Of a DNA stretch of 40,448 nt, positions 29,102-33,651 are shown in pieces (positions within the stretch are counted from its first letter, which is position 1; each line of letters starts with the position of its first letter). The notes beneath the pieces are model-generated. The model made no database searches, was not told where the DNA came from, and was given only the letters and a program-made list of their open reading frames with translations. The DNA lies in NCBI GenBank assembly GCA_028277085.1, contig JANQHL010000139.1, positions 1 through 40,448 on the forward strand. The letters run 5' to 3'. This DNA is from Flavobacteriaceae bacterium (GTDB taxonomy: Bacteria; Bacteroidota; Bacteroidia; Flavobacteriales; Flavobacteriaceae). Position numbers and translations under genes: made by a program.

Positions 29102-29857
29102 TTGGAACACCCCATCAAAATTCTTATAGTTGAGGATAATGTCATCATAGCCGATGATATGCAGTCTATGCTGGAAGAAATTGGTTATGAAGTGGTTGAC
29201 AATGTAATTGTTTATGAGCAGGCCATAGAGGTGCTCAAAAACAACCATGTAGATCTTGTTTTGATTGACATTATTTTGGCCTCAGATAAAACTGGGATTG
29301 ATTTAGGTAAACATATCCGACAGAACTACAACATTCCGTTCATTTTTGTGACCTCAAACTCAGATAAAGCTACCGTGGAAAATGCAAAAACGGTTAAACC
29401 AGACGGCTATTTGGTAAAACCCTTTGAGCAACAGGATTTGTACACTTCTATTGAAATTGCATTATCCAATTTTAATTATTCCAAGAAAAATGCCAGTACC
29501 GATATCGCGGAAACAGGAGGAGAAAGTTTTACCTCCAATTCCGTCTTAAAGGATTCCATTTTTGTAAAAAAACAGCACTTGTATTATCGCATCCAATTTG
29601 GAGACATTCAATTTATCAAAGCGGATAATGTTTACCTGGAAGTGAATACGGTTGACAAGAAATTCCTGGTACGTTCTCCTTTGAAGGACTACCTGGAGAA
29701 ATTACCAAAGAACAAGTTTTTTAGGGCCCATAAGTCCTACATAGTTAATGTAGATCATATAGATGCCATTAACTCTAAGGATATTATGATAAATAACACG
29801 CTAATCCCAATTTCAAAAGACTTTAAGGAATTTATCATATCCTCTATGAATTCGTAA
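29102..29857 (+). CDS. LytTR-family response regulator
   Basis: REC domain (VEDNVIIADDMQSML, LVLIDIILASDKTGID, VKPFEQQDL) plus LytTR DNA-binding domain (FIKADNVYLEVNTVDKKFLVRSPLKDYLEKLPKNKFFRAHKSYIVNVDHIDAI); TTG start. Confidence 0.95.
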   Translation: MEHPIKILIVEDNVIIADDMQSMLEEIGYEVVDNVIVYEQAIEVLKNNHVDLVLIDIILASDKTGIDLGKHIRQNYNIPFIFVTSNSDKATVENAKTVKPDGYLVKPFEQQDLYTSIEIALSNFNYSKKNASTDIAETGGESFTSNSVLKDSIFVKKQHLYYRIQFGDIQFIKADNVYLEVNTVDKKFLVRSPLKDYLEKLPKNKFFRAHKSYIVNVDHIDAINSKDIMINNTLIPISKDFKEFIISSMNS

Positions 29858-29892
29858 AAAGGGTAGTGCCTAATTAACATCGAAACAAATAG

Positions 29893-29918
29893 GTGCCGTA
29901 ATCACGGCACTTTTTTTT
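29893..29918 (+). terminator. Intrinsic terminator of LytTR regulator gene
   Basis: GTGCCGT-AATC-ACGGCAC followed by T8. Confidence 0.9.
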
Positions 29919-29941
29919 GTCCTCAACTGAAATTCTAAACA

Positions 29942-30007
29942 TTCACCACAATTTAAAGGAGCTTCACAACAATAGTTTCCTTCGGAATAGCTCCATGAGT
30001 AGATTTG
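29942..30007 (+). promoter_or_regulatory. LytTR-type direct-repeat operator plus promoter (P1)
   Basis: TTCACCACAATT (29942) and TTCACAACAATA (29963), 21-bp period; TAGATTTG at 30000 (37 bp after start of second repeat). Confidence 0.75.
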
Positions 30008-30012
30008 AAGTG

Positions 30013-30110
30013 TTTAAAAATGATATTAAATTTTAAAGGGTAATTTTTTCATTTTCATATAGTGTTCTCGTAAAAGGGCCTTGTTTTCGGACAGGGCTCT
30101 TTGTTTTTAA
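30013..30110 (+). ncRNA. Predicted small RNA 1 (~100 nt)
   Basis: Bounded by P1 -7 box and an 11-bp terminator hairpin; no convincing ORF. Confidence 0.6.
30073..30108 (+). terminator. Intrinsic terminator of predicted sRNA 1
   Basis: AAAGGGCCTTG-TTTTCGGA-CAGGGCTCTTT followed by GTTTTT. Confidence 0.8.
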
Positions 30111-30159
30111 ATATCCTACTCCCTAACCCTCTTCCATGAAATGCACAAAACCACGATAA

Positions 30160-30175
30160 AATGCACTTGTGCATT
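30160..30175. promoter_or_regulatory. Perfect palindromic site AATGCAC-TT-GTGCATT
   Basis: 7-bp arms, 2-bp spacer; an additional AATGCAC half lies at 30140-30146. Confidence 0.45.
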
Positions 30176-30188
30176 GGTTACCCCTTAG

Positions 30189-30254
30189 TTCACAACAAAA
30201 AAATACACTTTCACAACAAAACGGCAACTTGCACCCGCTTTCCCTCTATTTTTG
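30189..30254 (+). promoter_or_regulatory. LytTR-type direct-repeat operator plus promoter (P2)
   Basis: TTCACAACAAAA at 30189 and again at 30210 (21-bp period, identical 12-mers); TATTTTTG at 30247 (37 bp after second repeat start). Confidence 0.8.
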
Positions 30255-30259
30255 AATCG

Positions 30260-30338
30260 GACATTGTTGCCCCCCAAATCTTACATCCATATAATGTCTT
30301 AAAAAGACTGTACAAAGATTAAGTGCGGTCTTTTTTTT
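30260..30338 (+). ncRNA. Predicted small RNA 2 (~80 nt) with C-rich loop
   Basis: Starts just after P2; 6-bp stem GACATT(30260-30265)/AATGTC(30293-30298) presents loop GTTGCCCCCCAAATCTTACATCCATAT; ends in 12-bp terminator. Confidence 0.6.
30302..30338 (+). terminator. Intrinsic terminator of predicted sRNA 2
   Basis: AAAAGACTGTAC-AAAGATTAA-GTGCGGTCTTTTTTTT. Confidence 0.85.
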
Positions 30339-30404
30339 AATTGTGGACCATCTTTACGGTAATGAATACATTGCTGTACAGGTAGTTGTAGCATTTTTGC
30401 AATT

Positions 30405-30470
30405 TTCACCACTTAAGCTACTGGATTTACAACAAAAATTGATTACACAGCCAGGAGGATATTAATTTTG
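30405..30470 (+). promoter_or_regulatory. LytTR-type direct-repeat operator plus promoter (P3) of histidine kinase
   Basis: TTCACCACTTAA (30405) and TTTACAACAAAA (30426), 21-bp period; TAATTTTG at 30463 (37 bp after second repeat start). Confidence 0.75.
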
Positions 30471-30532
30471 TAATGACAAGCAGAAAGACTGCATTTTTAA
30501 AATGGATTCGTCCCAAGAAAGGACATGAAGTA

Positions 30533-32497
30533 ATGGTTAGGCCGAAAAGAAAAACGCTGATTTTTTTTGCATTCCTTTTTCTGGGATTAGGGGTGCTACA
30601 GGCGCAATTTGTCCAGGAAGAGGAAGATCCTTTCAAAGCATTTCAGGAAACCAACGGTGCAGCAAATAAATTAGACTTTTTCTACGATACCCCTAACCGA
30701 TATAAAAATAGCTCGGCCTACGATTGGTTAGAAGTGGTGAAAGTATATCTGAATACTGCAGAAAAATCAAAAGACACTTTGGGTATTCAGGCGTACAGAT
30801 TAATGCAAGCACAGCTGTATAATGATATAGCTGATCATTATAAAAGCATAGCCATCGCCAATGAACTTTTCAAGGAGGTAGATAGTTTGGACAGTACTTC
30901 CGTGAAGTTAATCCTGCAGCTTTTAGACCTCAATTACGGAAAGCTTCAAATGTATGACAAGCAAATTGAGATTCGTGAACAAATGCAAGCACTCGGTATT
31001 ACTCAGAGCGTTCCGTTTTATGATATTTATGCAAACATGGGGCTCTACAGGAAGGCGATGGAACAATATATACTTGCGGTAAAGCCCACAATTCCGGATA
31101 ATGATCATTTGGCGTTGGCCAAACACCACAATACGGTAGGCCACTACCTTTACCTGGATAAATCCCCGGAAACCGCTACTAATGAGTTTAAAAAGGCTTT
31201 GGGTTTTCTGGAAGTCTATATCAACGACATTTCCAAACAAAAATCCGATAAAGATATTTTTGAAAGTGAAGCGCTAAAGGCAGAGATTGAAGGAAACATT
31301 GGCAAATGTCATGTGCAACTTAAAGAGTATCCGGAAGCAGTACCTCTTTTGACCAATAGCCTTAGTGTTTTGGAAGAGTTCAATAATGGAAGCTATAAAA
31401 AGCAAATTATTGACAACACTCTGAATCTGGCAGAAGCACATCTCAAACTGGAGAATGACGAAACTGCAAAAGCGCTTTTGGATAACGAATTTGAAAGTAT
31501 AGCCATTAAACAAGAAATCAAGCGAAATAAACTGTTGGCGGACTACTTTGATATACAAGAAAACTTCAGAAGTAGCTCAGGCTTTTACAAGCGGAACGAA
31601 TATATTATGGATTCCTTAAAAGCGAACGAAAGATCTATTTTGCAACAACAGTTGGTAGCTATAGTTGGCACCTCTGATTTAGAAAACTCTAGACGACTTA
31701 TCAACGAACAGAAACTGGCGAACGAAAAAATTAGAAGTGAAATACAGGCAAAAGACGAAAGGATAAATCTGGTTATTATTTCCTTGATTTTCACCTTACT
31801 GGGTTTCATGGGGTTGGTATATGCTTATCTTAAAAGTATCAAGAATCAGCGCCTTATTGCAGAACAAAAATATATTATTGAAAACTCGCTTAAAGAGAAG
31901 GATTCCTTGCTAAAGGAAATTCATCATCGTGTAAAGAACAACCTGCAAATGGTCTCGAGTTTGTTGAGCCTTCAAACCCGAAATACGAAGAGCAAAGCTG
32001 CAATTGAAGCCCTTGAAGAAGGAAAAAGCAGGGTTAAAGCAATGGCCCTGATCCATCAAAAGCTGTATCAAAATGAAGACCTGTCGGTTATTGAGATGCA
32101 AGGATATATAGAAAGTCTGATTAACAGTGTGCAATCCGTTTACAAAAAGGGAGGACACAATATCAGCATTACGGTAGATGCCGAAGGTACAGAACTGGAT
32201 ATCGACAGAGCCATTCCTTTCGGGCTTATTTTGAATGAATTGGTGTCCAATACCTTTAAATATGCATTTCCTGAAAGTGATGATAATGGGAAAATTTACA
32301 TCCATCTAAGGAAAAATGGCGATGAGGGTTATTTTGAGTATTCGGATAACGGAGTAGGCCTACCCGAAGATACCGACGAACGAACCAGTAATTCTATGGG
32401 GCTACGTTTAATCAATCGGCTTGTAAATCAACTACAATCCAAGTTAAATGTTGATCGGGCAAACGAAGGAGTCCGTTTCTGGTTTAATTTTAACTAA
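30533..32497 (+). CDS. TPR-containing sensor histidine kinase, HisKA_2 type
   Basis: EIHHRVKNNLQMVSSLLSLQTR, LILNELVSNTFKYAF, YSDNGVGLP, SMGLRLINRL. ORF begins 30473, but the -7 box at 30463-30470 places the start site at or after that ATG; Met at 30533 (MVRPKRKTLIFFAFLFLGLGVLQAQ signal peptide) is preferred. Confidence 0.9.
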   Translation: MVRPKRKTLIFFAFLFLGLGVLQAQFVQEEEDPFKAFQETNGAANKLDFFYDTPNRYKNSSAYDWLEVVKVYLNTAEKSKDTLGIQAYRLMQAQLYNDIADHYKSIAIANELFKEVDSLDSTSVKLILQLLDLNYGKLQMYDKQIEIREQMQALGITQSVPFYDIYANMGLYRKAMEQYILAVKPTIPDNDHLALAKHHNTVGHYLYLDKSPETATNEFKKALGFLEVYINDISKQKSDKDIFESEALKAEIEGNIGKCHVQLKEYPEAVPLLTNSLSVLEEFNNGSYKKQIIDNTLNLAEAHLKLENDETAKALLDNEFESIAIKQEIKRNKLLADYFDIQENFRSSSGFYKRNEYIMDSLKANERSILQQQLVAIVGTSDLENSRRLINEQKLANEKIRSEIQAKDERINLVIISLIFTLLGFMGLVYAYLKSIKNQRLIAEQKYIIENSLKEKDSLLKEIHHRVKNNLQMVSSLLSLQTRNTKSKAAIEALEEGKSRVKAMALIHQKLYQNEDLSVIEMQGYIESLINSVQSVYKKGGHNISITVDAEGTELDIDRAIPFGLILNELVSNTFKYAFPESDDNGKIYIHLRKNGDEGYFEYSDNGVGLPEDTDERTSNSMGLRLINRLVNQLQSKLNVDRANEGVRFWFNFN

Positions 32498-32598: not shown

Positions 32599-33651
32599 AT
32601 GCAAGCGAGCCATTCAAAGCATATTCTCAATTTCAAAAGGCCAAGCGGCACCTCCAGGGGGATCTTAAAACAAAAGGAGACATGGTTTATCATACTTCGG
32701 GATGGGAACCGCTATGGGATAGGAGAATGTGGACTTTTACGGGGTTTAAGCATAGATGACAAACCCGATTATGAAAGGCAATTGTTATGGACCTGCAAGA
32801 ACATCCATTTAGATAAGCAAGAACTTCTGCAGAAATTAGAAGACTTTCCATCTATAAAATTTGGATTAGAACAAGCATTGCTATCTTTTGAAGGCAGCAG
32901 CACCTTTGAACTCTTTCCCTCCCGCTTCACTTCATCAGAAGCAGCTATTCCTATCAATGGCCTTATTTGGATGGGAGAAGAGTCATTTATGTTGGACCAA
33001 ATTCAACAACGTTTGGAACAGGGATTCCGATGTATTAAGATGAAGATCGGAGCCATTGATTTTGCGGTGGAATTGAAACTCCTGAAAAATATTAGAAGGC
33101 AATTCCCCGAAAAAGAGCTGGTGCTACGTGTGGACGCTAATGGCGCTTTTTCCCCTTCAAGAGCCATAGCAGTCCTGAACCAATTGGCAGAACTAGGGAT
33201 ACATTCCATTGTACAGCCTATTGCAAAGATGCAATGAAAGGCAATGGCTGATTTATGCCGGAAAACTCCTGTTCCTATTGCACTGGATGAAGAATTGATT
33301 GGGATTCACAATACCATGGAAAGAAAGGAGTTGCTGCAGATCATTCGTCCGCAATATATCATTTTAAAACCCAGTTTACTAGGAGGATATACCTCTTGCA
33401 AAGAATGGATTACCCTGGCTGAGCAATTTGGAATAGGATGGTGGGTGACCAGTGCGCTGGAAAGTAATGTGGGGTTAAATGCCATAGCGCAATGGACCTT
33501 TACGCTGAACAATACAATGCCACAGGGGCTCGGTACGGGAAGCCTTTTTACCAACAATTTCACAAGCCCGCTCGAAGTGGAGAATGGAAATTTATATTAT
33601 AGAAAACAACTATCTTGGCAGCACGATATAATTCAACAACTATGTACATAG
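32599..33651 (+). pseudogene. menC: o-succinylbenzoate synthase interrupted by in-frame TGA (33235-33237)
   Basis: Two in-frame ORFs (32599..33237 and 33244..33651) together form one enolase-superfamily OSBS: KMKIG, DANGAF, [IVQPI], DEELIG, LKPSLLGGY. Confidence 0.85.

Follow-up and report, generated by a model that had tools for sequence, protein, structure and literature searches.

Paralogous small RNA genes behind LytTR-type operators as a putative output of a two-component system in Flavobacteriaceae

The window, a stretch of 40,448 nucleotides from a Flavobacteriaceae bacterium (assembly GCA_028277085.1, contig JANQHL010000139.1), carries between a menA-like and a menC gene a locus made up of a LytTR response regulator gene, an intergenic region with three promoters and a histidine kinase gene. 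The features of this locus are as follows.

29102..29857, plus strand: LytTR response regulator gene with a TTG start, putative activator (Response_reg 1.7e-21, LytTR 2.7e-18)
29891..29918, plus strand: intrinsic terminator of the regulator gene (terminator scan)
29942..29974, plus strand: operator 1, two repeats with a period of 21 bp (pattern and matrix)
30000..30007, plus strand: -7 box 1, TAGATTTG (expected transcription start site, TSS, ~30012)
30012..30107, plus strand: putative non-coding sRNA1 gene, ~96 nt (80.5 bits with covariance model R1, of which this copy is one row)
30041..30071, plus strand: invariant core of sRNA1, TAATTTTTTCATTTTCATATAGTGTTCTCGT, with the proposed seed AUAGUGUUCUC (65-copy alignment)
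30073..30107, plus strand: intrinsic terminator of sRNA1 (13-pair stem and T run)
30189..30221, plus strand: operator 2 (pattern and matrix)
30247..30254, plus strand: -7 box 2, TATTTTTG (expected TSS ~30259)
30259..30338, plus strand: putative sRNA2 gene, ~80 nt (R1 match of 17.8 bits, E 0.083; fold)
30273-30283, plus strand: sRNA2 core, CCCAAATCTTA (conserved block in homologues)
~30303-30334, plus strand: terminator stem of sRNA2 (fold), with a T run and an end at ~30338
30405..30437, plus strand: operator 3, 9-mer ACCACTTAA followed by ACAACAAAA (pattern and matrix)
30463..30470, plus strand: -7 box 3, TAATTTTG (expected TSS ~30475)
30533..32497, plus strand: histidine kinase gene, putative partner (HisKA_2 6.3e-27, HATPase_c 2.5e-9)

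An earlier, sequence-only reading of this DNA had named the protein next to the intergenic region as a LytTR regulator, and both a receiver and a LytTR DNA-binding domain were found in it. Its TTG start was present in all 69 orthologues compared and was followed by GAA in 67 of them, which is unusually fixed for a non-ATG start. The kinase consists of a signal peptide, TPR-like, HisKA_2 and HATPase domains. Its reading frame is open from 30473, and the probable start is the ATG at 30533, which opens with the signal peptide; the ATG at 30473 would lie outside the kinase transcript, since its TSS is expected near 30475. The menC-like gene (MenC_N, MR_MLE_C; window positions 32599-33651, plus strand) is split by a single in-frame stop into two ORFs in the same frame, representing either real pseudogenisation or an assembly error.

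The repeat pairs and their boxes (29942/29963 with the box at 30000, 30189/30210 with 30247 and 30405/30426 with 30463) were confirmed to the base. They are TTCACMAC pairs with a 21-bp period, and TAnnTTTG, the consensus of the Bacteroidota sigma-A -7 element (PMC9723704), starts exactly 37 bp past the second repeat at all three sites. The TSS estimates place the box at -12 to -5, its position in Flavobacterium psychrophilum (PMC9723704). Two direct repeats of about 9 bp, 12 bp apart and with a 21-bp period, correspond to the LytTR operator geometry (PMC6193735) that the sequence-only reading had recognised. The composite TTYACMAC-N13-TTYACAACAA-N27-TAnnTTTG matched three times in the 3,974,387-base assembly, each time in this intergenic region, and its reversed pattern did not match at all; the arrangement singled out by that reading is thus confined, in strict form, to these places in the assembly. 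Furthermore, the 21/37 geometry, which it had expected to recur in related intergenic regions, is kept in more than 100 related promoters. At the -33 position, where it had seen no consistent TTG, the TTG of Bacteroidota sigma-A promoters is absent and TTT[C/T] is conserved instead.

An operator weight matrix derived from 133 homologous sites elsewhere, with window site 1 counted among them, scored window sites 1, 2 and 3 at 51.6, 19.7 and 18.9, respectively. No score above 10 was obtained in the rest of the 40-kb window, and the maximum in 25 order-1 Markov controls was -3.7. The matrix is composed of a weaker repeat 1 ([T/A]nAC[C/A]ACA), 12 bp, repeat 2 (TTCACAACAATAATTTC) and TACnTTTAC at +37. 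The box was included in the alignment behind the matrix; the +37 spacing was instead counted with the repeats as the only anchors. With repeat 2 as the sole anchor, TAnn[TA]T stood at +37 in 123 of the 133 unique sites of the sRNA1 core (runner-up offset +43, 46/133), and repeat 1 lay at -21 from repeat 2 in 97 of them.

Terminators were found approximately 60-90 nt past boxes 1 and 2, and neither promoter reads into a protein gene. These terminators, and hence the small RNAs, had been overlooked in the sequence-only reading; they predict RNAs of ~96 and ~80 nt and leave only promoter 3 to enter the kinase gene. The sRNA2 hairpin was identified from the fold, its 9-nt loop exceeding the limits of the terminator scan. 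As expected of an sRNA gene, the sRNA1 locus combines its own promoter, an intrinsic terminator, a conserved unpaired seed and no ORF. The 25 central core positions, which are unpaired, were identical in all 65 aligned non-redundant copies, an invariance that is partly built in because the copies were fetched by exact core matching; in a scan with up to 2 mismatches, most copies were exact and variants were rare. The terminator hairpin varied in a compensatory manner across the same 65 copies, with changes on both sides in 9 of 14 consensus pairs.

With one genome per species scanned, the core was detected in at least 119 stretches of DNA from Flavobacteriaceae and related unclassified Bacteroidota. 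Carriers among the matches listed were Maribacter, Allomuricauda/Flagellimonas, Arenibacter, Eudoraea, Cellulophaga, Robiginitalea and Croceivirga, and a few of the listed matches came from metagenome bins whose sole label is Bacteroidia or Bacteroidetes. The 25-nt core is identical over dozens of genera of marine-type bacteria, with 1-6 sites per genome, mostly 2-4. The same operator stands upstream of 133 unique core sites; 43 of these adjoin a regulator orthologue, and the remainder are either dispersed or have too little flanking sequence to tell. In the window's genus and in two other genera, those dispersed copies that were examined had this operator as well. Half of 100 dispersed core loci adjoin menB; given the position of the window locus between menA-like and menC genes, at least two core copies are therefore old and syntenic.

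Orthologous intergenic regions from ten genomes of the genus and from two other genera have the same layout and a diverged sequence. Fixed in these twelve, with exceptions, are a block of 31 nt ahead of the first terminator and the CCCAAATCTTA block in the second RNA. In one of the other genera (L016) the first block is missing between regulator and kinase and occurs in three copies elsewhere; 4 of the 12 showed no recognisable second RNA, and the third operator, at the kinase, was not recognised in several, including ones that keep operators 1 and 2. In eight Allomuricauda-like loci (L035, L044, L045, L046, L056, L061, L096 and L114), a conserved block, approximately AAACTAACGTTCTTTATATACCCCATAC, follows the pre-kinase operator; it may be a leader under conservation or an RNA of a third type. 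An Rfam search over 29700-30700 gave no match above the gathering score; matches retrieved at E up to 10 belonged to unrelated families, all below gathering, and were rejected.

When model R1, built from sRNA1 copies, was run over the 40-kb window, sRNA2 was its sole match besides sRNA1. Homologues of sRNA2 share the same operator, and some retain remnants of core 1, e.g. CATTTTCATATATAGTGTTC (L217). From the R1 match and these remnants, sRNA2 is most likely a diverged paralogue of sRNA1; the sequence-only reading had argued against a recent duplication from the unconserved DNA between repeats and boxes, an argument that does not hold for two paralogous RNAs. RNAs of the sRNA2 type also occur behind more diverged regulators in genomes where core 1 is absent (L238, L239 and L243), which suggests that sRNA2 is the older type. 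In L243 (G122), a diverged regulator is followed by a series of four operator-promoters, each with a terminator-like end, which would form a larger RNA array.

The final 11 nt of core 1 have their complement, GAGAACACTAT, at the start codons of genes for exported proteins and lipoproteins, and this site is kept in orthologues that are only 29-52% identical. In three unrelated genes, perfect core complements of 19-21 nt lie over the start codon in the register TAT-ATG-AAA-ATG. The candidate targets are the following.

L164: gene of a small exported protein, perfect complement at the start
L170: gene of a CAP-domain lipoprotein (CAP E 2.5e-14), perfect complement at the start
L202: gene of a lipoprotein, perfect complement at the start
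L171: gene of a DUF6089 protein, complement with two mismatches upstream

Among eight orthologues of the first target (28-39% identical), GAGAACACTA lies just upstream of the start in five, with identities of 29-39%, and TAGGACACTATATG in a sixth, and two have no site. Of eight full-length orthologues of the L202 protein, six have GAACAC at the start; in a third lipoprotein family it is present in three of four members, the fourth having GAACGC, with a G-U pair retained. The seed 10-mer AGAACACTAT occurred at 14 non-core places in 1.41 Mb of DNA, 9 of them at starts, against one place for the reversed and none for the shuffled 10-mer, although this count is not independent of the orthologue conservation, since several loci had been included as target orthologues. 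Duplex energies fit most members of the first two target families; in the third lipoprotein family they are weak. The conserved complementarity to translation starts was thus observed in relatives of the window genome. In the window's own genome, no strong target was found, and the 3-mismatch sites examined lie mostly within coding regions. The best candidate in the window is a HAD-like gene on the minus strand whose start lies at 1298 (AGAACACTATG); it ranked first among 32 genes with z -3.5 and is a weak candidate. Two broader target signatures were rejected. An 18-nt exact complement was present in only 1 of 400 genomes, so that pairing over the full length is rare and what is conserved is the 11-nt 3' seed. 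Complements with three mismatches numbered 78 non-core sites against 49 for one shuffled pattern in 13 genomes, and were mostly intragenic among the 17 inspected; we regard them as mostly due to chance.

Another possible explanation is that sRNA1 mainly binds a protein or the kinase or regulator mRNA, and that the complements at start codons are few or secondary. We consider this unlikely. An invariant stretch of 25 nt does exceed a usual seed, and the regulator start itself, TTG GAA CA[CAT], is strongly conserved, with GAACAC in 22 of 69 orthologues. However, synonymous variation occurs within the regulator start of these 69 orthologues and is free beyond its TTG GAA, no longer complement is retained, the regulator start is not among the ten best duplexes of the 32 window genes, and three independent target families have conserved start sites. 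The regulator mRNA is a possible further target of sRNA1.

In a survey of 400 genomes of the family (237 genera), the core with up to 2 mismatches was found in 71 genomes and in none of the other 329; the reversed pattern gave no match in the 400. The regulator query matched 82 of the 400 genomes at E <= 1e-60. The 71 core genomes were exactly those with the closest regulator orthologues (82-98% identical; one 78%), and the other 11 regulator-positive genomes, at 58-75% identity, had no core. As judged from these genomes, the association appears strong but partly phylogenetic, the carriers forming one clade of the family. It suggests that the operators are bound by the regulator at 29102-29857 and not by another LytTR paralogue. 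That the RNAs are real and mainly activated by such a paralogue, or from sites shared by several LytTR proteins, is quite improbable in our view. Another LytTR protein could bind, as genomes of the window's genus hold 20-47 regulator-like matches each and unrelated operons, too, have 21/37-type sites next to them, with 206 sites in 13 genomes against 46 for the control; on the other hand, the core and a close regulator orthologue coincide in 71 of 71 genomes, with none in the 329 elsewhere, and about a third of the core sites (43/133) directly adjoin the regulator. Elsewhere, some of the 21/37-like sites stand ahead of polysaccharide genes, of small ORFs and of a further RNA-like unit, so the regulon may be wider, or LytTR paralogues may share the operator code.

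Operator-like sites with the 21/37 spacing also stand ahead of two short conserved ORFs, MISEFNHEPV...KKLFML and MLYDTYGEEYL..., at L287, L288 and L283, where a small ORF follows the site, and at L281 and L290. One of the two ORFs is followed by a terminator, and both are possible small-protein members of the regulon. In L285 and L286, similar sites precede genes for UDP-glucose dehydrogenase-like, nucleotide-sugar epimerase/dehydratase-like and receiver-domain proteins in a polysaccharide cluster, which is possibly under another LytTR protein.

The best reading of the locus is a LytTR two-component system with paralogous antisense RNAs as its main output. It is drawn from sequence, namely from the operators, terminators, RNA family, covariation, copy number, co-occurrence and conserved complementary sites. 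We hold with considerable confidence that the intergenic region comprises two paralogous genes for trans-acting sRNAs and a kinase promoter, all LytTR-activated, and that the sRNA1 seed pairs at the starts of envelope mRNAs. The second repeat of each operator abuts the -33 region of a TAnnTTTG promoter, and the phosphorylated regulator would most likely activate transcription from all three promoters, as well as from the dispersed sRNA1 copies in related genomes. Activation rather than repression is suggested by position, the second repeat being centred at about -42 from the expected start, beside a -33 region lacking TTG. The ~96-nt sRNA1 would be an unpaired leader with the invariant core, followed by the terminator. 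In mRNAs for envelope lipoproteins and exported proteins, its 3' seed AUAGUGUUCUC would pair with GAGAACACUAU at the start codon, most likely blocking translation initiation; repression is suggested by the pairing at start codons, a mode demonstrated by experiment for FopS in Bacteroides (PMC11697453). A feedback loop is likely, since operator 3 serves the kinase. More broadly, we think it likely that in a large clade of Flavobacteriaceae the principal output of a two-component system is a set of paralogous antisense RNAs of two types, acting as a shared start-codon switch of many envelope genes, with the module placed among menaquinone genes.

The model of the sequence-only reading, in which three LytTR-activated promoters jointly drive the kinase operon as one mRNA, appears very unlikely. 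All three promoters do face the kinase and lie between it and the regulator, but terminators stand behind the first two, the intervening segments are kept as RNAs around a fixed core and are present far from any kinase as well, and several orthologues with operators 1 and 2 showed no operator 3 at the kinase. Hardly credible is a conserved core acting as a DNA element (a recombination or protein-binding site) or small-peptide code rather than as a base-pairing RNA, which would suit the extreme 25-nt identity and the several copies per genome, but not the fixed order of promoter, core and terminator with the covarying hairpin, the lack of variation at would-be wobble positions or the complementary sites conserved at start codons.

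Each part of the system has known counterparts (LytTR operators, two-component-controlled sRNAs and multicopy sRNAs); their combination, the RNA family and its occurrence in Bacteroidota have no entry in Rfam and were not met in the literature searched. A literature search for sRNA and LytTR in Flavobacteriaceae returned nothing relevant, and none of the papers searched contained the core string. Little of the post-transcriptional control in Bacteroidota has been mapped and, to our knowledge, circuits leading from a LytTR protein to an sRNA are known only from Firmicutes. If the proposal is true, it provides a widespread RNA family for which the regulator is named, the promoter code is exact, targets are predicted and the seed is swappable, and makes start-codon pairing testable in bacteria largely without Shine-Dalgarno sequences, e.g. 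in cultured Maribacter, Cellulophaga and Arenibacter.

In the agr-RNAIII system of Staphylococcus aureus, a regulatory RNA is likewise activated by a LytTR protein, AgrA, from paired direct repeats in its own intergenic region. RNAIII, which has a length of ~514 nt and encodes a peptide, is single-copy and from another phylum, unlike the multi-copy sRNA1. The promoter-proximal repeats of AgrA are centred at about -60 (PMC4227749), whereas the second repeat here is centred at about -42 of the expected TSS. FasX and VR-RNA control the translation or stability of secreted-protein mRNAs (PMC4691137). FasX and VirRS/VR-RNA of Firmicutes thus resemble the present system in joining a two-component system to an RNA effector, but their RNA sequences are unrelated and, unlike the window RNAs, they form no two-type array. 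FasA and VirR are LytTR-type regulators, and we know of no dispersed copies of FasX. Several near-identical sRNAs under one two-component system are represented by Qrr of Vibrio. The csRNAs of CiaRH and LhrC1-5 of LisRK are arranged in the same way (PMC4691137); these three differ from the window system in regulator family, promoters and phylum.

LytTR regulatory systems (LRS), including LRS-like operons of Bacteroides, have 9-mer direct repeats 12 bp apart, located ~10 bp upstream of -35, and the site 3 9-mer ACCACTTAA is letter-identical to one HdrR repeat (PMC6193735). In them, the partner of the LytTR protein is a membrane inhibitor, whereas the window combines a receiver domain with a kinase, and their repeats lie ~33-34 bp from the -7 box against 25 bp in the window. 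As far as they are described in the parts of the source consulted, FopS/GibS of Bacteroides thetaiotaomicron are multicopy paralogous sRNAs that pair at start codons and repress translation of envelope genes, with experimental proof for FopS (PMC11697453). By that description they resemble the window RNAs as multicopy Bacteroidota sRNAs at envelope-gene starts, and differ in that those parts report no LytTR regulator. Rfp18 of F. psychrophilum, from the same family Flavobacteriaceae, is a conserved sRNA with predicted pairing to secreted-protein mRNAs (PMC9723704); compared by description, it pairs via its third stem-loop, whereas the core in the window is unpaired.
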